This document shows positions 277-12,271 of a stretch of 32,013 bases of DNA, piece by piece. The stretch is taken from NCBI GenBank assembly GCA_014377015.1, contig JACMQL010000015.1:1-32013 (forward strand). Direction: 5' to 3'. The notes beneath the pieces were generated by a model. It did no database searches. It was not told the DNA's origin and was given only the letters and a program-made list of their open reading frames with translations. How positions within the stretch are numbered: the stretch's first letter is position 1; every line of letters begins with the position of its first letter. The stretch is from Actinomycetota bacterium. Its GTDB lineage: Bacteria > Actinomycetota > Actinomycetes > Nanopelagicales > Nanopelagicaceae. The translations under genes were made by a program, and so were the position numbers.

Positions 277-1566
277 TTATGCGTAGGTCAGTCCAAGATT
301 ATCTTGCATGCGACGGAGTTGAACGATCAAGCTTGACTCATTTAACTGCACCTGATCGTAAGTGATTAGGTCACCTACCTTGATTGCCTTTTGTACTACT
401 GCGCCTTGGATCAAGCCGATTGGCACAAGATTGTCACGGCGAGCATCGGAAGCAATATCCGAATAACCGCGCACGGTGTATCCACCGATTCCGTCAATCA
501 CATCTCCCGGATTCATATCTTTTTTCGCCATTGTGCAAACCTCAGCTTGCAAGTGCGGGGCAAAAAGTGATGATTCACGGTCAAGAACTGCACGAGCTAT
601 CGAAAGCGGCGCTTCGACTGAGGCCAAGTGGTACGGACGATAAAGAGCGAAGTACGGCCCCTTGCCCATTCCGAGGTAAGACAATTCGTGATTAATGTAA
701 GGAGCATCGGTACGTACGATTACAAAGACGCCGGGTGCAACATCACCCATGCAATAGTCGACCACGCCTGGACGATCAAGAACTCCACCATCTTTCTGAA
801 GCGAAAAGACATCTTGCAGAGTCTTCACAGTTGCTTGCGGACCGTACATACCGCGCTTTGAGAGTTCAAGCCCAGTGGTGTTGGCGAGGGCAGCCATTTC
901 AATCATGGTCTTTGATCCATCAGTAAATGAGCAAAGCATCTTCGGATTCATCTGCTTGGCAATCGCGCGGTCTTTAACTGTATCTGGATTGCTAAGCGGT
1001 TCAAATGGGTTGTTCTTGCCCTTGCCTGCAGCAACGATTTCGAATTGAAGATCACGAGCAAAGTCAACAAGAACTTTTGCCTCAACGGGCTCATCACCGT
1101 GACAAACCGTATATACGGCGCCCCCTAGTTGAGCTGTCTTGTGAAGCAGAGGTCCAATGGTTACATCCATCTCTACATTGAGAACTGCTACATCCTTCTT
1201 GGCCAACAAGCATGAGTATGTAACACGGGCGCCAATATCTGGCACGCCAGTGGCTTCCACGACGACATCAAAGGGAAGTTCAGCTATGAATTCGGTGGTT
1301 GTCGTACCAACAGCTTTGCCTGCATTTAACGCATCGGTAATTACCTTTGGATCTGTACTGATTACAACATCCTTAACGCCAATGTCGTTGTAGAGGCTGC
1401 GAATGCGATCTGCATCGATGTCAATTACAAGTACCAATGAAAGACCGGGCATGCGAGCTACTTGGCCACCAAAACCGCGACCCATTTGCCCTGCACCTAC
1501 GATTGCTACGCGGACATCTCGTCCGAGAGTTTTTGCATGATCTAAAAGTCTTTGTGAGTATGCCAT
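277..1566 (-). CDS. NAD(P)-dependent oxidoreductase with C-terminal SAF domain (DXR-like/DRL family)
   Basis: This 429-residue protein has an N-terminal Rossmann fold with a GAGQMG dinucleotide motif at residues 24-29, resembling homoserine dehydrogenase. A middle catalytic region follows, then a C-terminal SAF domain at about 345-410 (PGDVIDGIGGYTVRGYSD). The architecture and length match the DRL family, whose Brucella member was shown to interconvert 1-deoxyxylulose 5-phosphate and 2-C-methylerythritol 4-phosphate; other members have unknown substrates. It is the last gene of a glucitol-type PTS operon, 22 bases after the IIA gene. The natural inference is that it oxidises the phosphorylated polyol delivered by that PTS. 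The substrate cannot be read from sequence. The start is an ATG at 1564-1566 with a weak ribosome site. Family assignment is fairly sure and the reaction is inferred. Confidence 0.85.
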   Translation of the reverse strand: MAYSQRLLDHAKTLGRDVRVAIVGAGQMGRGFGGQVARMPGLSLVLVIDIDADRIRSLYNDIGVKDVVISTDPKVITDALNAGKAVGTTTTEFIAELPFDVVVEATGVPDIGARVTYSCLLAKKDVAVLNVEMDVTIGPLLHKTAQLGGAVYTVCHGDEPVEAKVLVDFARDLQFEIVAAGKGKNNPFEPLSNPDTVKDRAIAKQMNPKMLCSFTDGSKTMIEMAALANTTGLELSKRGMYGPQATVKTLQDVFSLQKDGGVLDRPGVVDYCMGDVAPGVFVIVRTDAPYINHELSYLGMGKGPYFALYRPYHLASVEAPLSIARAVLDRESSLFAPHLQAEVCTMAKKDMNPGDVIDGIGGYTVRGYSDIASDARRDNLVPIGLIQGAVVQKAIKVGDLITYDQVQLNESSLIVQLRRMQDNLGLTYA

Positions 1567-1588
1567 GTTGCCAACACTCGATTCATTT

Positions 1589-1960
1589 TTAGTTTTTCAC
1601 GATTACCCTAAGTCTATCCCCGACATAAATCATCGGCAATTCGCGCAACTCCACATTTACATCTCCAGGGAGTTCCGCTTCAGTCAAACCGTTTGCCTTA
1701 AGATCTAAGTGACCAAGGTTCAACAAATTTTCACTTGCAACTGAACCAACTGCAAGCACAGTGAACTCATCATCATTAATTGCAATGATGTCACCAACAA
1801 TCGGCGCACGATTGTGATTATCAACTCTGTGCAGAATAGAAAACTCATGTAACTCTTCTGGCGCATTTTCTCCGAAGAAAACGAGAATCCCCTGTTCCCT
1901 GAAATCAGGAACAAGGGCTCCTACGGCTGTTACCGTTGATGAATAAACAACTTCGTTCAA
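1589..1960 (-). CDS. srlB: PTS glucitol/sorbitol-type EIIA component
   Basis: The product has 123 residues, the usual size of stand-alone EIIA-Gut. It aligns throughout with that family by eye: an AP.EL..F.ILH block near residues 33-45 containing the candidate phospho-accepting histidine, then AVGSVASENLLNLGH at about 70-84, and AELPGDVNVE at about 94-103. It receives phosphate from HPr and passes it to the IIB protein encoded just upstream. The start is a TTG at 1958-1960; no in-frame ATG gives a complete N-terminus. Only a few bases separate it from the IIB gene, so the two are co-transcribed. The substrate of this permease need not be glucitol, because close homologues serve several polyols. 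Confidence 0.9.
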   Translation of the reverse strand: MNEVVYSSTVTAVGALVPDFREQGILVFFGENAPEELHEFSILHRVDNHNRAPIVGDIIAINDDEFTVLAVGSVASENLLNLGHLDLKANGLTEAELPGDVNVELRELPMIYVGDRLRVIVKN

Positions 1961-1966
1961 GATAGA

Positions 1967-2338
1967 TCAAACTTCAGTGATCTGCTCGGCTTTTACACCG
2001 GAAACGAACAGTTCTTTAGTAATGAACATTGCAAGTGGGCCAGCTGGGCTAGTGCCATGAATGTCCACGGTGAGAACCTTCTTCATTGGATAGACACCAA
2101 CGCGCGCGGTTCCGCCGCAGTCAATTACTGCAACAGCTATCTTGTCGAATGGCACACTACTTTTAAATCCATCGAAGGGAGTTCCGCCAGTTAAATCCGC
2201 AATTCTCTGCGCGATGGGATGAATTCCGCCGCCCGTGACAGAATAAATGTATGGCTTGTCGTCAGTCGGGGTAACAGTAAGCGGACCACCCCAGCCACCT
2301 CTACCAGCAACGATTTGTACGCTCTTGTAATTTCCCAT
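1967..2338 (-). CDS. srlE: PTS glucitol/sorbitol-type EIIB domain as a separate protein
   Basis: This 123-residue cytoplasmic protein corresponds to the IIB half of enterobacterial GutE/SrlE. Diagnostic blocks are GRGGWGGPLTVTP near the N-terminus, VTGGGIHPIAQRIADLTGG, and VIDCGGTARVGVYP. The Cys in DCGGTAR is the candidate phosphocysteine; a second Cys common further along this block is Val here. The protein ends with SGVKAEQITEV, where the fused form continues into the membrane domain. The ATG at 2336-2338 is preferred over an upstream TTG because an AAGGAG ribosome site lies nine bases before it. In enterobacteria IIB and IIC2 are one polypeptide; here the IIC2 gene is separate and lies 125 bases upstream, with a strong hairpin in the gap. 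Confidence 0.9.
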   Translation of the reverse strand: MGNYKSVQIVAGRGGWGGPLTVTPTDDKPYIYSVTGGGIHPIAQRIADLTGGTPFDGFKSSVPFDKIAVAVIDCGGTARVGVYPMKKVLTVDIHGTSPAGPLAMFITKELFVSGVKAEQITEV

Positions 2339-2410
2339 TGCAATCAACTCCTTGTTCGTGGCGAACTTCGCCTGATTTTGTTAACCATTACAGCACTCTT
2401 TGGTGCTTTT

Positions 2411-2450
2411 ACACACGAGCGCGGGGATGTGACTCCCCGCACTCATGTGT
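2411..2450 (-). other. Intercistronic RNA hairpin inside the PTS operon
   Basis: Arms at 2411-2427 and 2434-2450 form a 17-bp stem with a 6-base loop. In minus-strand RNA the two imperfect positions are G-U wobbles. In plus-strand RNA the same positions are A-C mismatches, so the structure favours the operon transcript. It lies between the IIC2 stop (2464) and the IIB start (2338). No T run follows in the direction of transcription, so a processing or stability element, or a partial terminator, is more likely than a full terminator. Confidence 0.6.
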
Positions 2451-2463
2451 AATTTTTCTAGAT

Positions 2464-3012
2464 TTACTTGCTTGCGCTGTACAGACCGAAGGATGCAAAG
2501 TACGCGATCACTACAGAAAGTGGGCCCGTGATGACACGTGAGAAGAGAACGGCAGGTACGCCAATTTCTACTGTCTCTGGCTCAGCTTCTCCAAGTGCAA
2601 GACCTACTGGAATGAAGTCGCAACCAACCTGTGGGTTAATAGCGAAGAGAGCAGGCAATGAATACTGGGCGGGAATATTTCCCTTTCCAATTTCAACACC
2701 TATAAGAGTTCCGACAATCTGAGCGATTACTGCACCAGGTCCAAGTAGGGGGGAGAGAATTGGAATCGCACATACGATCGAGATAAGAAGAAGACCAGGC
2801 AAAGACGAAGCTGAGCCCTTTAGTGCTTTTGCAATCACATCACCAATACCAGTTGTCAGAATCAAACCGATGATGAATGAGATAAACGCCATAAATGGAA
2901 TGACGTTACGGATTACGGTATCTACAGAGTCGCGACCTGCTTGGTACAAAGTACCAACTACGCCACCTACTGCACGGCCAATTTTTACTACTAATGCTGT
3001 TAAACCGTCCAT
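2464..3012 (-). CDS. srlE: PTS glucitol/sorbitol-type EIIC2 membrane subunit (split from IIB)
   Basis: This 182-residue hydrophobic protein matches the C-terminal membrane half of GutE/SrlE. It begins with a short amphipathic stretch and has several membrane segments (near residues 38-60, 72-110 and 155-180). A conserved loop carries FAINPQVGCDFIPVGLALGEAEPETVEIGVPAVLFSR at about 123-160, a hallmark of the Gut IIC2 domain. Its ATG (3010-3012) is only three bases after the stop of the IIC gene, so the two membrane subunits are translationally adjacent and probably assemble together. The IIB domain normally fused in front is encoded separately downstream. It has the same gene symbol as the IIB entry because the two correspond to halves of one enterobacterial protein. 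Confidence 0.88.
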   Translation of the reverse strand: MDGLTALVVKIGRAVGGVVGTLYQAGRDSVDTVIRNVIPFMAFISFIIGLILTTGIGDVIAKALKGSASSLPGLLLISIVCAIPILSPLLGPGAVIAQIVGTLIGVEIGKGNIPAQYSLPALFAINPQVGCDFIPVGLALGEAEPETVEIGVPAVLFSRVITGPLSVVIAYFASFGLYSASK

Positions 3013-3015
3013 GAA

Positions 3016-3618
3016 TTAGGCCGCCTTCGCTGCTCGGGACATCATTTTGGCTGTTATTGCCTCTGTCACAATTCCGCGAATAAAGATCACTACCAAGCCG
3101 ACTAGCAAATAACGCACTGCTAAGTCGCCTAGGCCGTATCCCAATTGCTGAATTCCAGCTGCAATTCCCAAGTAAACGAAAAGTTCTCCCGGATTTGCAT
3201 GCGGGAAGATTCCGAGAATTGGATGCACAAATGACACCGCTGAGTCATAGAACGCAGGCTTTAAGCGCTCAGGAAGGAAACGACCCATTGTGTATGCCAT
3301 TGGATTTGTAAGCATGAATACTGAAACGAAAGGAAGCAACATGTAGCGAACTGGATAGTAACGAATCCCAGGTCGCGCAGCGATGGTTCCTAAATTTTCA
3401 ATTTTTTCTGCTCCAATTAAACGCACGAGAGCGTTTACTGCCGTTAATAGGACGATCAAAGTTGGAAGGATTCCTCCCATAAGGGAAAGAAGAACCGATC
3501 CACCTTTATTGAAGACTGCAATAAAGTCTTCAGCGGCTGTAGCCAACGCGCCAATAAAGCCCGTTGGTTTATCAACCGTGACAGCGGCTGCGTACGCAAC
3601 CATTCCACTTAATGCCAC
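3016..3618 (-). CDS. srlA: PTS glucitol/sorbitol-type EIIC membrane subunit
   Basis: The product is 200 residues long and similar in size to GutA/SrlA. Recognisable blocks are AEDFIAVFNKGG near residue 28, GGILPTLIVLLTAVNALVRLIGAEKIENLG at about 48-77, RYMLLPFVSVFMLTNPMAYTMGRFLPE, and HPILGIFPHANPGELFVYLGIAAG at about 132-155. These are family hallmarks of the glucitol IIC channel. The start is a GTG at 3616-3618 with a strong GAGGAGG ribosome site about seven bases away. It lies downstream of gutM with a 57-base gap and is followed after three bases by the IIC2 gene. With IIC2 it forms the membrane pathway through which the polyol is phosphorylated during uptake. Confidence 0.9.
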   Translation of the reverse strand: MALSGMVAYAAAVTVDKPTGFIGALATAAEDFIAVFNKGGSVLLSLMGGILPTLIVLLTAVNALVRLIGAEKIENLGTIAARPGIRYYPVRYMLLPFVSVFMLTNPMAYTMGRFLPERLKPAFYDSAVSFVHPILGIFPHANPGELFVYLGIAAGIQQLGYGLGDLAVRYLLVGLVVIFIRGIVTEAITAKMMSRAAKAA

Positions 3619-3675
3619 TTCACCCTCCTCAAGGATAAAGGCCGCAAGAGCGGCGATTGAAAAGGTCCGGTTGTT

Positions 3676-4095
3676 TTAATCTTCCCGGCCTGATTTTTCT
3701 CCTTGTTCCGACCGAGATAAATAATCCTTGATGTGTTGCGCTGACATAACTGCTGCTTCACGCACTTTATTAGGTTCATTCACCCCCACTCGATCACTCG
3801 AGATAATGTCGTCCAAGGAGAAACCTTTGTATCCATGCAGTGTCTTGGATTTCGCGAAAACGGTAAATCCGCGCAGCACGAGCCCATCCAGAATTACCTG
3901 ATTCTCATCAACAGTGAGAGCGACGAATGCTCGACCACCGCGATATCTACGACCACCCATTCCTACCGCAACCGTGCCTTGCTTGCGCAGTCCACGAAGA
4001 TCAGATTGAAATCTCTTCGCTTGCAAATATGCCAGCGCCAATTGGGCTGCCCACATTGCAGCGATGACAAGCAGGATGCGCGTCAGGTTTGTCAT
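3676..4095 (-). CDS. gutM: GutM-family glucitol operon activator-like protein
   Basis: The 139-residue protein has one N-terminal membrane segment (about residues 5-25, RILLVIAAMWAAQLALAYLQ) followed by a short basic cytoplasmic domain. That domain contains GGRRYRGGRAFVALTVDENQ and DGLVLRGFTVFAKSKTLHGYKG, which match the GutM/SrlM family. In enterobacteria GutM is an accessory activator of the glucitol operon; its membrane anchor suggests it may couple regulation to the permease. Its start overlaps the stop of the SorC-type regulator gene by four bases (ATGA), so the two regulators are translationally coupled. The charged C-terminus (SEQGEKSGRED) is probably disordered. Confidence 0.85.
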   Translation of the reverse strand: MTNLTRILLVIAAMWAAQLALAYLQAKRFQSDLRGLRKQGTVAVGMGGRRYRGGRAFVALTVDENQVILDGLVLRGFTVFAKSKTLHGYKGFSLDDIISSDRVGVNEPNKVREAAVMSAQHIKDYLSRSEQGEKSGRED

Positions 4096-5069
4096 GCGCT
4101 CTGTGCCGCCTTTGACGAAGTTAAAAGTTGCAAAACTTCAGTCGCACACGCCACATCGGTCACCAAAGTATCGATGAGACGTGCACGTGCAGCTCCCAAC
4201 ACACCTTGAGCTTTTTCCGCACCAGCAGCAACGCCAATCACTTGCGGGATTTTAGAAATCTCTTCAAGGGTAAGTCCGACTACTCGATTATCCATTTCGC
4301 TACTTACAGATTTACCGTGCGCGTCATAGAAGCGAGCTGAAATATCGCCTGCGTAAACTTTCGAGACATGTTCTGATTGCGCCTTAGTGAGGTGGAATTG
4401 TTTGAGGACCTCTTCACTCGATGTAGATCCGTGCGAGCCAATACCTACCAGCGCGACGGATGCAGTCCGAGAAACCTCCAACACGCGCGAAATGGATTCC
4501 TCATTCAGGAGAGTGTTGCGGGTTCGCGGATTGCTCACAACAGCCGGTGCAAGAAGAGGAACAAATTGCGCATGAAGATTCTGCGCAAGAGTGCGACCTA
4601 ACTCTTCAGCGGTTACCGAGGCAGCAACTGAAGAAAGGCCCCCCATGAGTTGCGTTACCTTCAAGCCAGTCAGCGATTCGCTTTCAACTTCAACTATGGC
4701 GGCCTCTACGCCCCGGCCCCAAGAAATTGCAATAGTCGTATCGGGCTTGAGAGCGCGCGTCAGCGCCACGGCCGCAGCGCGGCCTACTGAAGTCAACGTG
4801 GTTTCTGACCGGTCACTTCCGATTACTTGCACGTCGGCAATTCCCAGAACCTTTCTCAATTGATTTGAGAGCAGGTCGTGACGTGTAATTGGCGCGACAA
4901 TTTTTATCTGAACAAATCCCAGCCGCTTAGCGTCCGAAAGCATGCGTGAAACGTTCGACCGAGAGGTTCCGAGAGCTTTGGCTATCTGATCTTGTGACTT
5001 GCCCTTTTCATAATACAGACGCGCGGCACGAAGTATGAATTCCGTGTCGCGAGGCTTCACTATCGTCAC
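4092..5069 (-). CDS. SorC/DeoR-type sugar-binding transcriptional regulator
   Basis: This 325-residue protein has an N-terminal helix-turn-helix at about residues 12-55 (AARLYYEKGKSQDQIAKALG, then SRSNVSRMLSDAKRLGFVQI). The effector domain follows, with SorC-family blocks TTIAISWGRGVEAAI, QLMGGLSS, VGIGSHG and GVAAGAEKAQGVLGAARARLID. Such proteins bind phosphorylated sugars and control nearby uptake operons. It is the first gene of the permease half of the cluster, 132 bases after Enzyme I, and overlaps gutM by four bases. The start is a GTG at 5067-5069; a second GTG nine bases inside is possible. A palindrome just upstream (5074-5088) could be its autoregulatory site. The likely inducer is the phosphorylated product of the local PTS. 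Confidence 0.9.
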   Translation of the reverse strand: MTIVKPRDTEFILRAARLYYEKGKSQDQIAKALGTSRSNVSRMLSDAKRLGFVQIKIVAPITRHDLLSNQLRKVLGIADVQVIGSDRSETTLTSVGRAAAVALTRALKPDTTIAISWGRGVEAAIVEVESESLTGLKVTQLMGGLSSVAASVTAEELGRTLAQNLHAQFVPLLAPAVVSNPRTRNTLLNEESISRVLEVSRTASVALVGIGSHGSTSSEEVLKQFHLTKAQSEHVSKVYAGDISARFYDAHGKSVSSEMDNRVVGLTLEEISKIPQVIGVAAGAEKAQGVLGAARARLIDTLVTDVACATEVLQLLTSSKAAQSA

Positions 5070-5073
5070 ATCC

Positions 5074-5088
5074 GTTCACTAGTTGAAC
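5074..5088. promoter_or_regulatory. Candidate operator palindrome upstream of the SorC-type regulator
   Basis: GTTCA and TGAAC arms flank a five-base centre (CTAGT) a few bases before the regulator's GTG start, in the 132-base gap after Enzyme I. Position suggests an autoregulatory operator for the permease half of the cluster. With only 5-bp arms, chance occurrence is possible. Confidence 0.35.
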
Positions 5089-5201
5089 AATAGGGTCAGT
5101 GTGCTACCCGTCACAGCAAATTGCAAGCATTTGCCCGCAGTTTGGAGAAAAACTTTTCAATTACTTATACGGCGCTTCGCGTGCCTTGTGCGCCCAAAAA
5201 A

Positions 5202-6896
5202 CTAGAAACCAAGTTTTATTAACGCCGAAAGATGCGCACGAGCTGAAGTACGTGCTGCCCGTGCAGATGGCGCGGCCAGCGCTGCTTTCGCCGCAGATTG
5301 CATCTCCAGATGCGTAATAGAGGTCATGGCTAAAGCGACATCTTGAATGGCGCTGACGTTGCACGACAGACTGGTAACTCCGAGTCCAATCAAAACTGCG
5401 GCGAGCGCGGGATCAGATGCCGCTTCGCCGCATACCCCCACCGGACATTCCTGCGCAATGCCTGCGGCGGCCACTTGGCGAACCGCTCGAAGTAGCGCGG
5501 GCTGCCACGGATCGTTGAACGCAGCAAGTTGCGCTGATTCACGATCTGCGGCATGAAGGTATTGCCCAAGATCATTAGTACCGATTGAAACGAAATCACT
5601 AACTTGTGTGATTTCTTGTGCAAAAAAGACAGCGGATGGAACTTCAACCATTACTCCGGCGCTCTTCAATCCATAACTATGAACTAGGGAGGCAAACTCT
5701 TCTGCTTCAGAAGGAAGTGAAATCATAGGAGCCATCACCCATACATCTGCGCCGGATGCAAGGCTCGCATCTCGAATTGCCTCTAACTGAGTGAGAAGTA
5801 GATCCTTGTTAATCGCGATAGTTCGGTATCCGCGAATACCAAGTGCTGGATTGGGTTCATGCGAGAAGTTGATAAATGCCATCGGCTTATCGGCTCCGGC
5901 ATCGAGCGTGCGGATCACTACGCGTTTTCCCCTAAATGGAGAAAGCATCTTTGTATAAGTTTCGCGCTGGTCCGCAAGCGAAGGAGCACTCTGGCGCCCG
6001 AGGTAAAGGAGTTCGGTACGCAATAATCCGATCCCGTCGGCTCCGCTTTCAATTGCGACTGCCACATCTTCTACTCGACCTACATTTGCATAAATCGGAA
6101 CCTTAAATCCGTCACGGGTGAGATAACCCTCCGGAGACCGATTTGGTTCTACTGAACGCCGCAGGGCGAGCGCTGCCGAAACATCGCGCAATGCATCTTC
6201 GACTTCTACCGTCGGATTGAAAGTAACCGCACCCGTGCGAGCATCCAGGCCCACGCGGGCCGACATCAATGAGGTGGCCGCTGTGACTACCCCTTTACAG
6301 GCAACCACCGCCGGAATGCCAAGTGTGCGGGCAATAATCGCGGTGTGGCTAGTCGGGCCGCCCTGTTCGGTGATGATTCCGAGAACTTGACCTGGCTGGA
6401 GATCGGTGGTGTCGGCTGGAGACAAATCATGTGCAATTAAAATGACAGGAGTATCAAGTTGCGGAATCTCTGGATAGTTCACTCCCGAGAGAATGCATGC
6501 AATGCGGTCCCTAATATTTCCCACATCACTCGCTCGTTCGGCTAGATACCCGCCGGCTTCGGTCAGCAATTGAGAGAAAACTTCACTCGCCTCCCAAATG
6601 GCGGAAACCGCAGAGTTTCCCTTGCGAATGAGTGATTCAGCAGTGGAAAGAAGCGCAGTATCAACGGCTATCTCACTCGATGCATACAAAATTGCCTGCG
6701 CTTCCCCAGTGACTCGCTCAGCCCTTTCGGCCAACAGGTCAGATATTTGGTTTGCGGCGGCATTCAATTTTTCAATTTCGGTATCGGGCTCGTCGCTTGA
6801 TAAAGATTCAGTCGGCTTAGAAATAGGCAAAGGCATCAAATAGAAAGAGCCCAGTGCGGCGCCAGTGCTGGCTGAAATGCCCTGCAGTTCGATCAT
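5202..6896 (-). CDS. ptsI: PTS Enzyme I (phosphoenolpyruvate-protein phosphotransferase)
   Basis: The chosen form has 564 residues, close to the usual ~570. It takes phosphate from phosphoenolpyruvate and passes it to HPr. Seen in order: N-terminal HPr-binding helices; phospho-His184 in GGPTSHTAIIAR; the PEP-binding barrel with GIGLLRTELLYLGR at 288-301, VVIRTLDAGADKP and NPALGIRGYR; SIGTNDLGQY at about 437-446; and active-site Cys489 in GVCGEAASDP. The reading frame extends 20 codons upstream, but the ATG at 6894-6896 has an excellent AAAGGAGG ribosome site and begins the family-like IELQGISAS. It sits 62 bases after the E2 gene. Having ptsI beside a specific permease and with ptsH close by suggests that this may be the only PTS of the cell. 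Confidence 0.95.
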   Translation of the reverse strand: MIELQGISASTGAALGSFYLMPLPISKPTESLSSDEPDTEIEKLNAAANQISDLLAERAERVTGEAQAILYASSEIAVDTALLSTAESLIRKGNSAVSAIWEASEVFSQLLTEAGGYLAERASDVGNIRDRIACILSGVNYPEIPQLDTPVILIAHDLSPADTTDLQPGQVLGIITEQGGPTSHTAIIARTLGIPAVVACKGVVTAATSLMSARVGLDARTGAVTFNPTVEVEDALRDVSAALALRRSVEPNRSPEGYLTRDGFKVPIYANVGRVEDVAVAIESGADGIGLLRTELLYLGRQSAPSLADQRETYTKMLSPFRGKRVVIRTLDAGADKPMAFINFSHEPNPALGIRGYRTIAINKDLLLTQLEAIRDASLASGADVWVMAPMISLPSEAEEFASLVHSYGLKSAGVMVEVPSAVFFAQEITQVSDFVSIGTNDLGQYLHAADRESAQLAAFNDPWQPALLRAVRQVAAAGIAQECPVGVCGEAASDPALAAVLIGLGVTSLSCNVSAIQDVALAMTSITHLEMQSAAKAALAAPSARAARTSARAHLSALIKLGF

Positions 6897-6958
6897 CTTT
6901 GCCTCCTTTGCGGGATAGATTTTGAGCGTTCGTTCATCAATTTGATTTTGCGACAAGA

Positions 6959-8038
6959 CTAAAGTGACGAGACAAGCTGATCAAGTAAGTCTGCAGCCTC
7001 TAAAGAATCACAATAGCGAAGGTCAACCGTGAGGCTGAGTTCGACTGCATCGCGCGCACCGTTCTTGCCACCCACTGTCAGCGCCGTAGTGTGCGATGGC
7101 ATAAGCAACGGATGCGCGGATGTAATACTCGTTCGCGATAAATCGAATATCGAGGCAGTCGCACCGTTTAGCATGTCAATTGGAACTTTTCCGTCGCGCG
7201 CATGAATTTGCGTTTCCGCGATTAAACTCGTCAAATCGTCATGCGTCATCTGATCTGGATTCTTGAAGACTGGCAGAGCCAATCCGTATTTGGATTCCAT
7301 CACTAATGCAATACCAACGTTTGCATTTGGCGCTTCGGTGAGTGCGGAGATATTGACGTGGGTATTTTTGCGTAAGACCTTGGCCCACGCTGATGAAAGA
7401 GTAGCAAGATCGCTCTCTTGACCATGTGAGGAAAATCCAACAAAACGGGAAAGAGTCAACTGCGGAATTCCACGGGTCGTTTCGAATGCCTTGGCGACCA
7501 TCTTGCGATTAGCAACTCGCCGCGGATTACTTTGCTGGCTACGTTGAAAATTCACGACATCCTCGTGGGTGATCATCCCTGATGGCCCGCTTGAAAACAC
7601 GCTTAGCAAGTCAATGCCATTTTCAGCAGCAAGCACGCGTGCCTTGGGAATTGCGGAAAGAGCAACTCGTTCGATCGCCACTACTACTGGCTCGGGCAGA
7701 CTTGGAGAATCCTGCACAGGTGGTGAAGCTTCAATCACCTCCGGTGTAGGTGTAGGTGTAGGTGTATTGAAGTCGAAACTCATCACTTGAGTTTCGGTCA
7801 TAAGTTTCAGGACAGGTGCACCGACGGGCATAGTCGAACCAATTACACCGATAATCTCTGCGACTACTCCGTCGGCAGGCGATTCGACTTCCATATCGAT
7901 CTTGTCCGTGGCAACGTCAAAAAGAACGTCGCCTGATTTGACTGCATCACCCGCTTTTACGCGAACTTCAAGTAGATCGCCTTCCTCCATAGTCATGCTC
8001 ATTTTCGGCATGATCACGATGTATTCGAATTTGCTCAT
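6959..8038 (-). CDS. Dihydrolipoamide acyltransferase-like E2 subunit lacking the catalytic histidine
   Basis: This 359-residue protein has E2 domain order: a lipoyl domain at 1-80 with Lys46 in ATDKIDMEV, a TPTPTPTP linker at 92-99, a peripheral-subunit-binding domain at about 128-162, and an acyltransferase-like domain from about 172. The normal catalytic DHRxxDG motif reads D-L-R-Y-C-D-S at 339-345, so the catalytic His is Leu340 and the Gly is Ser. The domain is also shorter (about 190 residues) than the usual ~230. Either acyl transfer uses other residues, or the protein mainly carries the lipoyl group and scaffolds E1. The ATG at 8036-8038 overlaps the E1-beta stop (ATGA); an upstream TTG is less likely. 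No E3 gene is in the window. Confidence 0.85.
   Translation of the reverse strand: MSKFEYIVIMPKMSMTMEEGDLLEVRVKAGDAVKSGDVLFDVATDKIDMEVESPADGVVAEIIGVIGSTMPVGAPVLKLMTETQVMSFDFNTPTPTPTPEVIEASPPVQDSPSLPEPVVVAIERVALSAIPKARVLAAENGIDLLSVFSSGPSGMITHEDVVNFQRSQQSNPRRVANRKMVAKAFETTRGIPQLTLSRFVGFSSHGQESDLATLSSAWAKVLRKNTHVNISALTEAPNANVGIALVMESKYGLALPVFKNPDQMTHDDLTSLIAETQIHARDGKVPIDMLNGATASIFDLSRTSITSAHPLLMPSHTTALTVGGKNGARDAVELSLTVDLRYCDSLEAADLLDQLVSSL
7743..7766. repeat. Hexanucleotide tandem repeat encoding the E2 Thr-Pro linker
   Basis: Four exact copies of GGTGTA (plus strand) encode alternating Thr-Pro in the E2 linker between the lipoyl and binding domains. Because the unit is six bases, slippage would change linker length without breaking the frame. 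Confidence 0.8.
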
Positions 8039-9033
8039 CGCCAATCCGCCACAACTGATCGAGCCGCAGCGACAATATTGTTCACTTGCGGAACTGCCGC
8101 TTTCTCCAATTGAGGTGCATACGGAATTGGCACATTCATACCTGCCAACCTGACAACGGGTGCTATCAAATGTCCGAGTGCTGGCCCGGTGGCAACGAGC
8201 GCGATGACTTCATTCAGGAACCCACCGTGCTCTGGTGCTTCTTGGACAACCATGAGTCGTCCCGTGTTCTCTAACGATGCGTATACAGGATCCATATCCA
8301 GCGGAGAAATCGTGCGCGGATCGATAACAGTCACCTCAACACCTTCAACCGCCAATTCATCAGCCGCTGCCATCGCACGGGAGACCATGATTCCGGTGGC
8401 GACGATTGTCAGATCTTTTCCCTCACGCAGAACGCGAGAGACTCCGAGTGGAATTCGGTATGCGCCTTCTGGAACTTCTTCACGTCCAGGAATCTTGTAT
8501 AGGAGTTTATGTTCCAGAAAGATCACCGGGTTCGGATCATCAATTGCAGAAAGCAAGAGCCCCTTTGCCTCATAAGGAGAGGAAGGCATCACGACCTTCA
8601 ATCCTGGCACGTTGGCGAACCAACCTTCGAGACTCTGCGAATGCTGACCCGCCGCTCCAGTACCAGATCCCGAAGCGGCACGGAGAACCAAGGGAACATG
8701 CAATTCACCGCCAACCATGAAGTGAATCTTGGCCGCCTGGTTTACAATTTGATCCATCGCCTGAGCCGTGAAGTCAGAGAATTGAATTTCAACTATGGGG
8801 CGCATACCAGATAAAGCTGCTCCAACGGCGGCACCTACAATTCCTAATTCTGAAATTGGAGTATCACGAACTCGTTCTGACCCGAAGCGGTGATAGAGGT
8901 CGCCTGTAACGCCGAAGGCTCCTCCATATATACCGATATCTTCGCCGAGAATAAATACTTCTGGTCGTTCTTCCATCGCGATCGCCATTGCTTCGCGAAG
9001 AGCCTCCGACATAGTCAACATACGATCGCTCAT
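8035..9033 (-). CDS. Thiamine-diphosphate dehydrogenase E1 component, beta subunit
   Basis: The product has 332 residues, typical for E1-beta of pyruvate, branched-chain or acetoin dehydrogenases. Blocks seen are LGEDIGIYGGAFGVTGDLYHRFG near the N-terminus, DTPISELGIVGAAVGAALSGMRPIVEIQF, the AAGQHSQSLEGWFANVPGLKVVMPSSPYEAKGLL region at about 127-160, and a C-terminal transketolase-like domain (IVATGIMVSRA, VIDPRTISPLD, VVQEAPEHGGF). It pairs with the alpha subunit encoded immediately upstream, with a 4-base overlap, and its stop overlaps the E2 start. The style is nearer to acetoin dehydrogenase AcoB than to classical actinobacterial pyruvate dehydrogenase, which normally has a homodimeric AceE; the precise substrate is open. 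Confidence 0.9.
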   Translation of the reverse strand: MSDRMLTMSEALREAMAIAMEERPEVFILGEDIGIYGGAFGVTGDLYHRFGSERVRDTPISELGIVGAAVGAALSGMRPIVEIQFSDFTAQAMDQIVNQAAKIHFMVGGELHVPLVLRAASGSGTGAAGQHSQSLEGWFANVPGLKVVMPSSPYEAKGLLLSAIDDPNPVIFLEHKLLYKIPGREEVPEGAYRIPLGVSRVLREGKDLTIVATGIMVSRAMAAADELAVEGVEVTVIDPRTISPLDMDPVYASLENTGRLMVVQEAPEHGGFLNEVIALVATGPALGHLIAPVVRLAGMNVPIPYAPQLEKAAVPQVNNIVAAARSVVADWR

Positions 9034-10031
9034 GCTGATACCTTCTTAAATACTGCATCGAGTAAGTTTGCGGGATCCGCAGGGACCCCCTTCATCGCTT
9101 CATTCACGGCAGCTATAACTTGCGAGGTCGCCTCCGCATGCACTTGTGCGATTTCTTCATCAGTGATCATTCCTTTATCTTTCAAAAGATGCTCAAAAAA
9201 TAGAATTGGATCCTTTGTTTTCCACTCATCAATTTCTTCCTTCGTGCGATACAGATTCTTATCCGAACGCGAGTGGCCCTTCCATCGATATGTGACAAGT
9301 TCTAGCAATGTCGGTCCTTCGCCATTACGCGCGCGCTGCACAGCAGCTTGCGTGGCTTCATACACTGCCGAGACATCATTGCCATCGATGGTGTATCCGG
9401 GAATGCCGTAACCGAGACCACGCTCTGCCAATGTGTCGATAGCGAATGCAAGTTCGGTTGATGAACTCATTCCGTATCCGTTGTTTTCGCACACAAATAC
9501 AACGGGCAATTTCCATATCGCAGCTAAATTTGCAGCTTCATGAAAGGCACCTTCATTCATTGCACCATCACCAAAGAATGAAACTGCAACAGTTCCGCGA
9601 TTCATCAATTTAGAGGCGAGGCCAGCTCCGACTGCAATAGGAATTCCACCACCGACGATTCCGTTAGCGCCTAGGTTGCCTGTCGCTACATCAGCGATGT
9701 GCATTGATCCGCCGCGTCCACCGCAATAACCATTTTCTTTGCCGAGCAATTCAGCGATCATGCGTGTGAGGTCTGCGCCTTTTGCGACGCAGTGGCCATG
9801 GCCACGATGCGTTGATGTGATCTGGTCATCGATGTTGAGAGCCATGCAGACACCCGTTGCTGATGCTTCTTGTCCGATAGAAAGATGCATGGTCCCGTGC
9901 ATCATTCCGCGACCGAAAAGATCTTCCACCGCTTCTTCTAATTTGCGAATGCGTGACATTGTGAGCAATGCGTATCTCGCATGAACATTAGACTCGAGCG
10001 GGTTTCCGGTCAGAAGCGGGATGGTCGTCAT
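9030..10031 (-). CDS. Thiamine-diphosphate dehydrogenase E1 component, alpha subunit
   Basis: The 333-residue protein carries the thiamine-diphosphate signature, from GDG at residues 154-156 to NN at 183-184. Other E1-alpha hallmarks are HLSIGQEA near 49, STHRGHGHCVAKGAD at about 73-87, GGRGGSMH at 104-111, and the phosphorylation-loop-like TYRWKGHSRSD. Together with the beta subunit it would decarboxylate a 2-oxoacid, or cleave an acyloin as acetoin dehydrogenase does, and load an acyl group on the E2 lipoyl domain. It is the first gene of the minus-strand cluster, divergent from HPr across a 110-base promoter region. The location in a PTS polyol cluster argues for a dedicated catabolic enzyme rather than housekeeping pyruvate dehydrogenase. 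Confidence 0.92.
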   Translation of the reverse strand: MTTIPLLTGNPLESNVHARYALLTMSRIRKLEEAVEDLFGRGMMHGTMHLSIGQEASATGVCMALNIDDQITSTHRGHGHCVAKGADLTRMIAELLGKENGYCGGRGGSMHIADVATGNLGANGIVGGGIPIAVGAGLASKLMNRGTVAVSFFGDGAMNEGAFHEAANLAAIWKLPVVFVCENNGYGMSSSTELAFAIDTLAERGLGYGIPGYTIDGNDVSAVYEATQAAVQRARNGEGPTLLELVTYRWKGHSRSDKNLYRTKEEIDEWKTKDPILFFEHLLKDKGMITDEEIAQVHAEATSQVIAAVNEAMKGVPADPANLLDAVFKKVSA

Positions 10032-10042
10032 ATTCCAACTTT

Positions 10043-10052
10043 CACATATGTG
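10043..10052. promoter_or_regulatory. CACATATGTG palindrome in the divergent promoter region
   Basis: This perfect 10-bp palindrome lies in the 110-base region between the divergent E1-alpha and ptsH genes, 12-21 bases upstream of the E1-alpha start. The same region holds a TAATAT box at 10095-10100 with a partial -35 (TGTACA, 10071-10076, 18-base spacer) pointing toward ptsH. A shared operator is plausible but unproven. Confidence 0.35.
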
Positions 10053-10141
10053 CAGGTGCTTGAATAGATGTGTACATTAAACACCATTTGTGGGTAATAT
10101 GCTCTACATCACAAGCCAAGAATTAGTGGGGTTTAACCTAT

Positions 10142-10417
10142 ATGAAGGAATTCCGAACTGTTGTGGCCTCTGAAGTCGGCCTCCACGCTCGGCCCGCCTC
10201 GCTGTTTTCTCGTAGCGCCAAGGAATCAGGCTGCATTGTCCGCCTGGCCAAGGTCACCGATGGTGCAATCTCTGAATTCATCGATGGCACCAGCATCCTG
10301 CGCGTGATGACACTCGGCGTGAAGTTCGGAGATGAAATTGTGGTTCAAGTCGAAGGTGAAACCGAAGAGGTAACCGCAGCCGCCCTGCAAATTCTGGCTG
10401 AAATAGCCGATCACTAA
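10142..10417 (+). CDS. ptsH: PTS phosphocarrier protein HPr
   Basis: The product has 91 residues, about the usual HPr length. The phospho-accepting His15 lies in GLHARPASLF. The regulatory-serine region is represented by DGTSILRVMTLGVKFGDE, where Ser51 aligns with the Ser46 site of low-GC Gram-positive HPr; whether it is phosphorylated here is unknown. HPr shuttles phosphate from Enzyme I (5202-6896) to the EIIA protein of this cluster. It is divergent from the dehydrogenase and ptsI genes rather than being in a ptsHI operon. The ATG at 10142 is preceded by a weak purine-rich stretch (GTGGGG). Confidence 0.95.
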   Translation: MKEFRTVVASEVGLHARPASLFSRSAKESGCIVRLAKVTDGAISEFIDGTSILRVMTLGVKFGDEIVVQVEGETEEVTAAALQILAEIADH

Positions 10418-10508: not shown

Positions 10509-10659
10509 TATTTACGACTATCTCCCTCAATCGAATGACTCATCATACTTTGAGCAACTTTCGGTCAAATCGAGGGTAGGAACATCAACGAGATCTCAAC
10601 TCGCGAACGAAGCCATCATGGCGAACCGTGGAAAGACAACAGAATCGAAACAAAAATGA
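10480..10659 (+). CDS. Possible 59-residue small ORF coupled to the ice-binding gene
   Basis: A GTG at 10480 opens a 59-codon frame that ends in a TGA overlapping the downstream ATG (ATGA at 10656-10659), the arrangement typical of translational coupling. The encoded peptide begins MTVIGPSDDPIYDYLPQS and ends with a basic, polar segment (NRGKTTESKQK); it has no membrane segment and resembles no family I know. In favour: it fills an otherwise empty 238-base gap, and the next gene has no good ribosome site of its own. Against: the GTG has only a weak purine stretch upstream and sits inside an RNA hairpin. It may be a real small protein, a leader peptide or chance. Confidence 0.3.
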   Translation: MTVIGPSDDPIYDYLPQSNDSSYFEQLSVKSRVGTSTRSQLANEAIMANRGKTTESKQK

Positions 10660-11630
10660 AAGACAAGTTAAATCCCAATCGGATGGGGCTAATTTCGGCT
10701 GCCATCGTAACTCTATTATTTACATTCGTCCTCGCGCCGTCAATCAGTTCGGCCGCCGGTCCCACAATTACAACGGGCAGCACCTCGACTTACGCCGTCT
10801 TGGGCAGTTCAACCATCACAAATATTGGCGCCACTATTATCAGTGGCACCGCAGGCGGAAATATCGGTCTATCTCCTGGAACTTCATTCACGGGACGTAC
10901 AACCGTTACCACTACTGGTGTCCTTCATATAACTGACACCGCAGCATCCGTCGCGCAAACCGATCTCGTCACAGCCTTCAACAGCGCAGCGGCACCGGTT
11001 CCAACCACACTTTCCTCCCCTGACCTTGCCGGCAAGACTTTGGTTGCTGGAACTTATTCAGCGGCAGACGGAACCCTTGCAAACTCAGGCGCGTTCACAC
11101 TTGATGCTAAAGGAGATCCCACCGCGGTATTCATTTTCCAGACCGCATCAACGCTGAAAACAGCTTCAGGAAGTTCCATGACTTTAATTAACGGCGCACA
11201 GGCTTGTAATGTGTTCTGGAAAGTTGGAAGTTCCGCGACACTTGGTACCAACTCGACATTCGTGGGACACATTTTCGCGCAAATATCTATAACTGCCACA
11301 ACAGGTGCGAGCATCAAGGGTTCACTTCTGGCTCGCACAGGGGCCGTGACACTTGATACAAATACAATTGTCAACGACTCATGCGCACCGCTGCCATCAC
11401 CATCTGCGACACCTACGCCAACACCTACGCCAACGGCGACACCTACGCCAACACCATCAGTGACCCCAACTCCAACGGTGACCCCAACTCCGGTCGTAAC
11501 TCCAGTTGTCACAACAACAGGCGGAAAACTTCCTGATACAGGCTCTCCTTGGAACAACTTTCTTGCCCTCGGCGCAGGGTTGATTCTGCTCGGCGCTGTC
11601 GGATTCACATCTGGGAAAATTCGTAACTGA
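10656..11630 (+). CDS. DUF3494 ice-binding-like protein with LPXTG anchor
   Basis: This 324-residue surface protein has a signal peptide (residues 1-33, ending around SISSAAG), a DUF3494 domain at about 38-245, a Thr-Pro/Val-Thr-Pro stalk at about 250-285, and a C-terminal sorting signal: LPDTG, hydrophobic segment, then SGKIRN. DUF3494 blocks visible are YAVLGSSTITNIG, LSPGTSFTG, SPDLAGKTLVAGTYS, AVFIFQTASTLKT, ACNVFWKVGSSATLGTNSTFVG and GSLLARTGAVTLDTNTI. Members of this family adopt a beta-solenoid and bind ice or inhibit its recrystallisation; some may serve adhesion instead. The sortase gene follows after eight bases. The start ATG lacks a clear ribosome site but overlaps the stop of a possible small ORF. 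A cell-surface role in cold or ice-covered water is inferred. Confidence 0.92.
   Translation: MKDKLNPNRMGLISAAIVTLLFTFVLAPSISSAAGPTITTGSTSTYAVLGSSTITNIGATIISGTAGGNIGLSPGTSFTGRTTVTTTGVLHITDTAASVAQTDLVTAFNSAAAPVPTTLSSPDLAGKTLVAGTYSAADGTLANSGAFTLDAKGDPTAVFIFQTASTLKTASGSSMTLINGAQACNVFWKVGSSATLGTNSTFVGHIFAQISITATTGASIKGSLLARTGAVTLDTNTIVNDSCAPLPSPSATPTPTPTPTATPTPTPSVTPTPTVTPTPVVTPVVTTTGGKLPDTGSPWNNFLALGAGLILLGAVGFTSGKIRN
11394..11510 (+). repeat. Thr-Pro stalk repeat region
   Basis: Degenerate repeats of ACACCTACGCCAACG-like units encode the Thr-Pro stalk of the ice-binding protein. The same codon style appears at 1-36 in the other anchored protein, pointing to repeat expansion or recombination between the two genes. 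Confidence 0.7.
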
Positions 11631-11638
11631 ATTCCCTG

Positions 11639-12271
11639 ATGAGAAAATACCCGATTCTTCCGATCATTTCGGCGATGCTCGTCATCGCTGGAGTAGTTCT
11701 TGTCGGCGTTTCGGTCGCACAAAAGGTTGAGATGAATGCCAACTCTGGGAGTTACGTTCTTCCAGAGTTGGCGTTTCATGGCAAGCCTGCCGAAAAATCT
11801 ACGCAGATTGCCATCAGACCGATTAAGCGCGGTGATTACCTTGGGACGCTATTTATCGCTGGCATTAAAAAGACAATTCCGATCTACGAGGGCACCGAGT
11901 CTGAACAACTTAAAAAAGGTATCGGGCACTATGAAGGAAGCGTGCAACCGGGAGTCAAAGACAATTCGATTTTAGCTGGTCATAGGGATTCGGTATTTTC
12001 ACAACTTGGAAAATTGAAAGTCGGAGAGTTGCTTGTAATTCATTCCGCAAGTGGAATTTACACTTACAAAATAAGTCACTTTCGGATAGTAAAGAGCGAC
12101 GATCGCACCGTGATAGTTCCTACAAAGAACGCGGTTTTAACGTTGAGTACCTGCTATCCCTTCTACTTCATTGGTCCAGCGCCCAAACGTTTCATTGTCA
12201 GCGCAAACTTAATATCGACTCGAAATGCTGGCGCAACAAGTGATTCGAAAGCGTTGAGCAAGAAAGCATAA
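11639..12271 (+). CDS. Sortase, class D-like
   Basis: The 210-residue protein has an N-terminal membrane anchor (about 7-27) and an extracytoplasmic sortase domain. The catalytic triad is visible: His115 in LAGHRDSVF, Cys172 in LSTCYPF, and Arg184 in APKRFIV. The LSTCYPFYFIGPAPKRF region and GKLKVGELLVI favour class D over the class E enzymes common in high-GC actinobacteria. It would cleave the LPDTG motif of the adjacent ice-binding protein and probably the LPDTS motif of the protein ending at 198, joining them to peptidoglycan. It follows the ice-binding gene after eight bases with no separate promoter evident, so substrate and enzyme are co-expressed. Confidence 0.92.
   Translation: MRKYPILPIISAMLVIAGVVLVGVSVAQKVEMNANSGSYVLPELAFHGKPAEKSTQIAIRPIKRGDYLGTLFIAGIKKTIPIYEGTESEQLKKGIGHYEGSVQPGVKDNSILAGHRDSVFSQLGKLKVGELLVIHSASGIYTYKISHFRIVKSDDRTVIVPTKNAVLTLSTCYPFYFIGPAPKRFIVSANLISTRNAGATSDSKALSKKA

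Follow-up and report, generated by a model that had tools for sequence, protein, structure and literature searches.

A probable operon for methylerythritol uptake and use in Actinomycetota

The gene cluster at positions 277-10417 of the 32,013-nucleotide window (the whole stretch of actinomycetotal DNA analysed here) is a probable methylerythritol uptake and use operon; methylerythritol is a sugar alcohol that serves as a building block of isoprenoids. We hold with moderate confidence, from the gene content, that the PTS imports methylerythritol, that DRL makes DXP and that E1/E2 cleave DXP, the set having a dual use, catabolic or in the MEP pathway, according to lineage. The glucitol-type PTS would bring in 2-C-methyl-D-erythritol as its 4-phosphate (MEP), and DRL would convert MEP to DXP, a known chemistry of its family that is supported here by gene displacement. 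E1alpha/E1beta would then split the acyloin DXP, releasing glyceraldehyde 3-phosphate together with a two-carbon (acetyl) unit for E2/E3 to pass to CoA. Dxr is called reversible in the accessible part of PMC13001223. The pathway would be catabolic where E2 looks intact, namely in large actinobacteria, rhizobia and Priestia; in the source lineage DRL and a linked IspD appear to have taken over from DXR-I and the ordinary IspD, with the result that the same genes would feed the MEP pathway, and many PTS-bearing relatives that lack DXS could live on scavenged methylerythritol for their isoprenoids.

Gene content and layout

A preliminary description of this region had named EI, HPr, a full glucitol-type permease, regulators, DRL and E1/E2, and profile searches recovered every one of these genes with strong family matches (Table 1). 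Eleven genes, DRL through E1alpha, lie on the minus strand, with overlaps of 4-10 bp in three adjoining pairs, and HPr is divergent. No E3 gene was matched within the cluster. The contig ends 276 bases beyond DRL, and the ispD of the same genome is on another contig, 216 bases from its end. The presence of Gut-family IIA, IIB and IIC together with GutM marks the transporter as a glucitol-type PTS; IIB is split over two genes, and IIA and the split IIB score below the glucitol cut-offs, though IIC scores above. The gut/srl operon likewise has IIA, IIB, IIC, GutM and a sugar-responsive regulator, but the cluster differs from it in having DRL in place of sorbitol-6-phosphate dehydrogenase, a split IIB and its own EI and HPr. 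Pure sorbitol catabolism was rejected, since the 16 ORFs scanned between 277 and 15183 include no sorbitol-6-phosphate dehydrogenase.

Table 1. Features of the cluster, with positions in the window and profile matches
Feature	Position	Strand	Evidence
DRL / DXR-II oxidoreductase (MEP <-> DXP proposed)	277..1566	-	DRL_cat PF21135 5e-63; SAF PF08666 2.8e-7
PTS glucitol-type IIA	1589..1960	-	PTSIIA_gutA 5e-31; below NCBIfam gutA cut-off
PTS glucitol-type IIB, N-terminal part as separate gene	1967..2347	-	EIIBC-GUT_N 1.9e-49, profile 1-117/184
PTS glucitol-type IIB/C, C-terminal membrane part	2464..3012	-	EIIBC-GUT_C 4e-48; end of EIIBC-GUT_N
PTS glucitol-type IIC (EII-GUT)	3016..3618	-	EII-GUT 2e-71; NF049923 222 bits, above cut-off 150
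GutM-like activator	3676..4095	-	GutM 2.5e-22
SorC/DeoR-type sugar-binding regulator	4092..5069	-	Sugar-bind 6.9e-59; NF053881 203 bits, below cut-off
PTS enzyme I	5202..6956	-	Three PEP-utilizer domains: 8e-75, 1e-21, 1e-16
E2-like protein	6959..8044	-	Pfam lipoyl and E3-binding domains; shortened 2-oxoacid_dh, catalytic His absent
E1 beta subunit, ThDP-dependent	8035..9033	-	Transket_pyr 3e-43; Transketolase_C 2e-35; PRK09212 350 bits, above cut-off 321
E1 alpha subunit, ThDP-dependent, DRL-linked type	9030..10031	-	E1_dh 1.8e-87; tree and signature residues
Conserved promoter/operator-like element before E1alpha	10038..10084	-	GTGTTTAAT...ACAT..ATTCA...GCACATATGTGAA
HPr, divergent	10142..10417	+	PTS-HPr 1.6e-18; TIGR01003 65 bits, above cut-off 48

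Recurrence of the cluster

DRL, the Gut-PTS and E1/E2 stay together as a unit across genomes, as a check proposed in the preliminary description has borne out: E1alpha/E1beta accompany DRL in 40 of the 44 loci with full flanks, and the PTS is there too in 38. Among the best 40 DRL plasmid records, 32 carry E1alpha, in 31 cases 57-191 bp from DRL. The gene set recurs in Actinomycetota, Alphaproteobacteria and Bacillota, in the same or a rearranged order. All nine alphaproteobacterial E1-bearing regions inspected have DRL-E1alpha-E1beta-E2, with LpdA in four and LipA in two. Such recurrence is far beyond chance. Each family also occurs separately, and 19 of 80 DRL loci are without E1 or PTS, as could be the case if a biosynthetic DXR had come to lie by chance between a sorbitol PTS and a pyruvate dehydrogenase; co-localization in Actinomycetota, Alphaproteobacteria and Bacillota, with rearranged order, nonetheless refutes that reading, to which we give almost no credence. 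A consistent lack of E1/E2 from homologous clusters, which had been named as evidence against catabolism, is not the general picture, although in Listeria innocua and Phyllobacterium the DRL loci examined have no E1/E2 within the flanks covered.

DRL and the isoprenoid genes around it

The cluster DRL matches the Brucella DRL structures 3UPY/3UPL (phmmer E 1e-96 over residues 11-426); for the N-terminal NAD(P)-binding domain its 3HCDH_N score of 20.1 bits is below the cut-off of 22, and the phmmer match to 3UPY spans the N-domain. The DXR-II substrate residues compared were K191, K193, T229 (changed in DLO1/DLO2) and R320, which are K182, K184, T220 and R310 here. All four are retained in 40 of 41 aligned DRLs, the exception (L061) having A at both K193 and T229. 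The H250 equivalent is Y241 here and H in 17 of the 41 aligned rows; in the accessible text of PMC3847144 His250 is usual rather than defining, being found in all but four DXR-IIs. The likeness to the DXR-II/DRL family (Brucella DRL) comprises homology, DRL_cat and SAF domains, the four residues and an apparent role as sole DXR in some genomes; the family is treated as biosynthetic in the same text, whereas the cluster DRL has in addition a PTS and E1/E2 linked to it.

In the genus of the source genome DXR-I occurs in none of 21 genomes and DRL in 19, and in family f1 (37 genomes) DXR-I occurs in 14 and DRL in 21, never together. The source genome itself has DXS (a short-loop variant, above the dxs cut-off), IspD and IspG, and a search for DXR-I found none. 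This gene content fits DRL as the supplier of MEP. The preliminary description had reasoned that a second DXR would leave DRL free for catabolism and had named the lack of one as evidence against its reading; as the genome shows no DXR besides DRL, a biosynthetic role must probably be added to whatever else the enzyme does there. IspD is linked in 60 of 80 DRL loci and unlinked in 20. In f1-like loci it adjoins DRL, whereas in Pseudonocardiaceae and Nonomuraea it follows E2; all nine of these that were checked have a further IspD. The linkage of IspD, a user of MEP, and the 19 genomes of the genus in which no DXR but DRL was found make MEP the likely intermediate of the cluster pathway.

Elsewhere the cluster accompanies other isoprenoid equipment. 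Large actinobacteria that carry it also have DXS and DXR-I, and G067 has DXR-I in addition to it. Two genomes, G104 and G107, combine the cluster with HMG-CoA reductase and lack DXS, DXR-I, IspG and true IspD, the four MEP-pathway genes tested; for these reasons the cluster should be catabolic there. A purely biosynthetic DRL was rejected, since the cluster also occurs in genomes with HMG-CoA reductase. Methylerythritol catabolism, as originally suggested, therefore stands in part: the conserved unit, the four DXR-II residues, the IspD linkage and the HMG-CoA reductase genomes speak for it, and the probable additional biosynthetic role of DRL and the loss of the E2 His against it.

DXS loss and salvage

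Among DXR-I-negative genomes DXS is absent from 17 of 22 that have the PTS versus 0 of 17 that do not, which suggests methylerythritol salvage. Corrected for phylogeny, the association is not significant (6 independent pairs with branch support, of which about 3 were concordant and 0 opposite; median p 0.25). The tree for this test included DRL, the IspG-only tree being poorly resolved. Left out of the table were G077 (permease status unclear), G017 (no IspG match; PTS and canonical DXS present), G066 (no IspG; no DXS), G001 and G012 (no DRL), G108 (partial IspG) and the DXR-I-bearing genomes. G068 was scored as PTS-positive from its IIA and IIB genes, no IIC being found (contig edge), and G013 as PTS-negative because its genome showed no EII-GUT; its contig breaks off within DRL, towards the PTS.

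That the missing DXS is an assembly artefact is unlikely, since all 17 tree genomes that lack both DXS and DXR-I possess IspD and IspG. A full-length DXS query gave at best E 8e-26, with 23-35% identity, in 24 of the 25 DXS-less genomes (family f1 plus the wider set; G095 was left out), and E 3e-163 or better in 4 controls. Completeness figures cover G000-G059 only. Because the source genome has its own DXS, salvage is not needed there.

E1 and E2

The preliminary description had called the dehydrogenase acetoin-type, an assignment that we do not retain. In the E1alpha tree, a quick one with long branches, 8 of 10 non-linked rows, the Acinetobacter one with them, form a group without the window E1alpha (SH-aLRT 89), and the E1alpha signature residues differ from those of E1alpha next to acetoin genes; an ordinary acetoin dehydrogenase was rejected on these two grounds. 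AcoABC and the cluster have in common a two-subunit E1, a lipoyl-domain E2, the logic of acyloin cleavage and, in E1alpha, THRGHGH; they differ in E1alpha position and residues, and the cluster is without acetoin or butanediol genes.

An active E2 motif is also lacking. The catalytic domain is shortened and reads DLRYCDS at the place where E2s from distant clusters mostly show DHRxxDG; the HRxxDG type is the E2 active-site motif. It is kept in 26 of 28 large-actinobacterial E2s, and the canonical His is absent from the E2 here and from 16 of 16 f1-like E2s compared. Because the genus lacks this His, acetyl-CoA release by this E2 looks doubtful; in the source genus a different E2 may carry the flow to acetyl-CoA, or there may be less catabolism.

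Other substrates and pathways

Could the imported compound be another polyol, with DRL a related oxidoreductase acting on its phosphate and E1/E2 cleaving the resulting ketol? Between distant clusters DRL identity is no more than about 40-60% and H250 varies, and the low glucitol scores of IIA and the split IIB, though not of IIC, would fit. Against this stand the place of DRL as the only DXR found in nearly all genomes of an MEP-pathway genus, an IspD within the cluster and the retained T229, K191, K193 and R320, and we consider such a polyol rather unlikely. Alternatively, 1-deoxy-D-xylulose might be imported, alone or with methylerythritol, giving DXP directly for E1/E2 to cleave and for DRL to turn into MEP for isoprenoids. 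E. coli XylB phosphorylates deoxyxylulose, and FGGY kinases adjoin DRL in Aerophobetes (xylulokinase the best match, below cut-off) and in Priestia (pentulose-type). Glucitol-type PTSs, however, take polyols, and the linkage of DRL to E1/E2 persists where DXR-I or HMG-CoA reductase is present, which would leave DRL jobless; we regard deoxyxylulose import as very unlikely.

A different direction of flow is conceivable as well: E1alpha/E1beta could be a DXP synthase (from pyruvate and glyceraldehyde 3-phosphate) that opens an alternative isoprenoid entry with DRL as DXR and the linked IspD, E2 being a relic and the PTS incidental. Many genomes with the cluster have no DXS, among them G097, which nevertheless has IspD and IspG; IspD is linked; E2 is degenerate in f1-like genomes; and in Aerophobetes neither E2 nor the PTS lies close to DRL-E1alpha-E1beta. 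Mutants of PDH E1 are able to form DXP, as aceE mutants of E. coli do in the accessible part of PMC3424233; the likeness is an E1 active site that handles DXP, but those are suppressor mutants and work in the synthetic direction. Yet G104 and G107 retain the cluster with none of the four tested MEP genes, large actinobacteria own DXS and DXR-I besides it and mostly keep the E2 motif, LpdA/LipA are linked to it in some rhizobia, and G005 (one genome), which has E1 and no permease, keeps DXS. On balance a synthase role is unlikely, and cleavage of DXP derived from methylerythritol remains our preferred reading.

Implications

How DXR-II could arise in strains that have a DXR-I is a question raised in PMC3847144, which puts forward gene dosage and tolerance to fosmidomycin as explanations and places DXR-II also in organisms with the mevalonate pathway alone or with neither pathway; a search of its main text for 'catabol' gave 0 matches. 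A catabolic role, if true, would answer that question, and the cluster could account for the retention, in many bacteria, of an isoprenoid enzyme that looks superfluous. No catabolic or salvage route for methylerythritol was found in the literature searched, most subscription papers being outside the search. Enterobacteria are able to import methylerythritol and use it for isoprenoids, and external methylerythritol was reportedly used in a Salmonella study; uptake for isoprenoids is alike there, but we know of no dedicated operon or catabolism in that case.

More broadly, and only tentatively, a reversed upper MEP pathway, completed by a dedicated DXP-cleaving dehydrogenase complex, may constitute a widespread catabolism of environmental methylerythritol (and perhaps of 1-deoxyxylulose), with DXR-II kept or spread as its catabolic enzyme; several streamlined freshwater and marine actinobacterial lineages may have lost DXS and become obligate methylerythritol scavengers for all their isoprenoids. 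If so, freshwater bacteria would have an extra carbon source and a means of isoprenoid salvage (auxotrophy for an MEP intermediate). The cluster might also be a biological sink for 2-methyltetrols, which are isoprene oxidation products too.

The element upstream of E1alpha

A sigma-70 promoter scan gave 5 matches, fewer than in shuffled sequence (10.7). The 17-base core of the element before E1alpha has 2 matches (both strands of one palindrome) versus 0.10 expected, and its composite pattern occurs in 15 of 222 loci, representing 10 different genomes.

Cluster organization

Profile searches of window ORFs confirmed every gene that the preliminary description had listed for the cluster at 277-10417, with strong family matches throughout: 11 minus-strand genes, transcribed in the order E1alpha, E1beta, E2, EI, SorC-type regulator, GutM, IIC, split IIB/C, IIA and DRL (a DXR-II-type oxidoreductase), and a divergent HPr gene. 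It resembles a polyol PTS operon and an acyloin dehydrogenase combined and, from its gene content, would work like the one joined to the other. The 17-base core of the element preceding E1alpha (at most 3 mismatches) matches the window only within that element, on both palindrome strands (0.10 expected), and the composite pattern occurs in 15 of 222 fetched loci, representing 10 different genomes. A nearby ice-binding-like protein gene and a sortase gene would give this actinobacterium a surface-anchored ice-binding protein; a similar-looking pair, judged by eye, adjoins DRL in locus L046.

Coordinates of features in the window, its genome (G000) and related loci
Feature	Location	Strand	Remarks
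Element GTGTTTAAT...ACAT..ATTCA...GCACATATGTGAA	window 10038-10084		Directly before E1alpha
PTS IIB/C	window 1967-3012		Two ORFs in the window's lineage; single gene in Priestia, Listeria and Nitratireductor
Ice-binding-like protein	window 10656-12271	+	LPXTG-type anchor; sortase gene immediately after
DXS variant	L053:8144-9877 (G000); also L054-L058		~577-600 aa; seven genus genomes, one partial
Second, divergent IspD-like gene	L046:4234-4869	-	Convergent with IspD in DRL genomes
Second, divergent IspD-like gene	G000, contig C38:17077-17517	+	Convergent with IspD in DRL genomes
Second E1beta-E1alpha pair	L062:6540-8557 (G000, contig C29)		16 kb stretch shows no E2 motif
Aerophobetes locus	L123:4380-15825		SorC-type regulator, alcohol dehydrogenases, xylulokinase-like FGGY kinase, DRL, E1alpha, E1beta; no E2

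Conservation of the DRL-E1/E2-PTS unit

The association of DRL with glucitol-type PTS (Gut-PTS) and E1/E2 recurs in other genomes. Among the best 80 loci that a DRL scan of species genomes retained from 151 relatives, E1alpha and E1beta are present in 55, PTS membrane genes in 58, both in 52 and an IspD homologue in 60; 19 lack both E1alpha/beta and PTS, a number of these lying on short contigs. For the 44 full-flank loci the corresponding counts are 40, 38, 38 and 34, those without E1 being L076, L077, L092 and L113. Gene order varies from group to group. On plasmids, comparison of the best 40 of 111 DRL records with the best 40 E1alpha rows placed E1alpha in 32 of those 40 records, 57-191 bp from DRL in 31 and 8.4 kb away in one (Priestia). 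The Priestia locus has Gut-PTS, GutM, HPr, E1alpha/beta, E2, LpdA, two SorC-type regulators, DRL and an FGGY kinase. DRL-E1alpha-E1beta-E2 was seen in nine opened annotated regions (Sinorhizobium, two from Rhizobium, Agrobacterium, Shinella, Nitratireductor, Pseudoroseomonas, Aminobacter and Terrarubrum), with LpdA added in four and LipA also in two of these. An ABC transporter and sugar kinase lie beside three regions and Gut-PTS with ptsP beside four; the Shinella and Aminobacter regions have neither set adjacent. E1/E2 were not found within 10 kb of the Listeria innocua locus (regulator, DRL and Gut-PTS), nor within 11 kb of a Phyllobacterium DRL that adjoins an ABC transporter.

DRL as the probable DXR

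DISPLACEMENT. In family f1 (37 genomes, the window's genus included), canonical DXR (DXR-I) occurs in 14 genomes, DRL in 21 and the two together in none; neither was found in two genus mates, G001 (74% complete) and G012 (94%). This pattern is gene-content evidence that DRL would carry out MEP/DXP chemistry. In the DXR-I-bearing f1 genomes checked, the IspD frame is of IspDF-fusion size (379-390 aa) in six of eight and shorter in two; in the DRL genomes IspD is free-standing and adjoins DRL. Eight genomes have DRL with neither PTS nor E1 in the stretch and canonical DXS in every case, and on this gene content their DRL could be understood only as the DXR.

The preliminary description had proposed that canonical dxr and dxs elsewhere in the genome would leave DRL free for catabolism. 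In the G000 assembly (1.72 Mb, 90.5% complete) the dxs part stands, as a short-loop DXS scoring above the dxs cut-off, and the dxr part does not: neither of two models detected DXR-I, so that DRL is the only DXR found there. IspD and IspG are both present. The window contig stops 276 bases past DRL, and on contig C38 only 216 bases separate IspD from the contig end; since IspD directly follows DRL in relatives (it is in the flank of 33 of 34 f1-like loci), an assembly break probably separates the two. The DXS variant lacks the long loop after residue ~185 and scores above the cut-off in both members scanned.

In alignments, 38 cluster DRLs, the window's included, and those of Listeria and Phyllobacterium retain the counterparts of K191, K193, T229 and R320; the more distant DRL of L061 has Ala at both K193 and T229. 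PMC3847144 describes T229 as absolutely conserved in DXR-II and altered in DLO1/DLO2. In its DRL catalytic and SAF domains and in these four residues, the window DRL passes the sequence tests made for DXR-II, save that His250, usual but not universal, is Tyr.

IspD, an enzyme that consumes MEP, immediately follows E2 in Pseudonocardiaceae and Nonomuraea clusters, and each of the nine such genomes checked carries one or more additional IspD genes. Salinibacterium and Cryobacterium loci are flanked by an IspDF gene; IspD is unlinked in 20 of the best 80 DRL loci, including seven of the Aquiluna-like ones. The IspD linkage and the kept DRL residues argue that MEP would be the cluster intermediate.

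Absence of DXS and possible salvage

At E 1e-20, 21 of 49 locus genomes gave no DXS match; four f1 relatives gave only weak matches, and a strong one was likewise missing from three class relatives of lower completeness, G050, G051 and G059. A full-length query, with four positive controls, confirmed absence in 24 of the 25 DXS-negative genomes. Among 39 DXR-I-negative tree genomes, DXS is absent from 17 of 22 with the PTS versus 0 of 17 without it (Fisher p 5e-7); because just six independent pairs on supported branches were available (about three concordant, none opposite), the phylogeny-corrected test is not significant. All 17 DXS-less tree genomes keep IspD and IspG (the G063 IspG match has one internal stop), and a search for HMG-CoA reductase gave no match in any of the 17. 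G079 is without DXS and DXR-I, both of which its close relatives retain. G105 (locus L136; Micrococcales bacterium 31B, 3.9 Mb) has DXR-I and IspG; neither DXS nor HMG-CoA reductase was found in it.

Proposed catabolic role and the E1/E2 complex

DXP is an acyloin, which E1 would cleave to glyceraldehyde 3-phosphate and an acetyl unit. The cluster and HMG-CoA reductase, the one mevalonate gene searched for, occur together in two genomes, G104 (Sediminivirga luteola) and G107 (Terrimesophilobacter mesophilus); DXS, DXR-I and IspG were not found in them, and their IspD-family match is weak and in a long frame. Large actinobacteria carry the cluster alongside both DXS and DXR-I. Both gene contents favour a catabolic role. 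E. coli E1 mutants produce DXP (PMC3424233), and Dxr is described as reversible (PMC13001223).

The E2 motif DHRxxDG is kept in 26 of 28 cluster E2 matches in L109-L142 (His is Gln in L109; L142 is a fragment) and in four of five plasmid loci checked, L156 giving no pattern match. The E2s of the window's genus and its sister group have a shortened catalytic domain; the catalytic His is Leu in 10 of 10 of one E2 set and in 13 of 16 f1-like E2s, and in the other three the motif has decayed further. With so short and His-less an E2, acetyl transfer may go via another E2, or the complex may have a different role, possibly including DXP synthesis. Other observations also sit poorly with the route: in Aerophobetes, DRL, E1alpha and E1beta are joined by a xylulokinase-like kinase but by no E2, and G067 has DXR-I (at contig base 756) despite its cluster. 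We consider it moderately probable that methylerythritol catabolism through MEP and DXP, as first proposed, best accounts for the conserved cluster, with a biosynthetic/salvage IspD branch added and the E2 step doubtful in the window's genus. We infer all substrate assignments in this route, of which no published description was found in the literature searched.

The reading of E1/E2 as an acetoin dehydrogenase did not survive the tests made. A quick tree of 48 E1alpha sequences, several of its branches long, groups eight of the ten non-DRL-linked rows with an acetoin-gene neighbour, apart from all DRL-linked rows (SH-aLRT 89). Of the remaining two, one comes from a C. difficile plasmid and is placed with Priestia and Aerophobetes; L063 is very long and unplaced. 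All 38 DRL-linked rows share eight invariant E1alpha residues, among them His45 (6 of 10 non-linked rows have Pro) and Thr47 (5 of 10 have Phe). By the tree and residue tests, E1/E2 does not belong to the acetoin dehydrogenase family.

The C. difficile plasmid locus L216 has a SorC-type regulator, E1alpha, E1beta, E2, LpdA and a different PTS in a stretch without DRL; its E1alpha clusters among the DRL-linked E1alphas.
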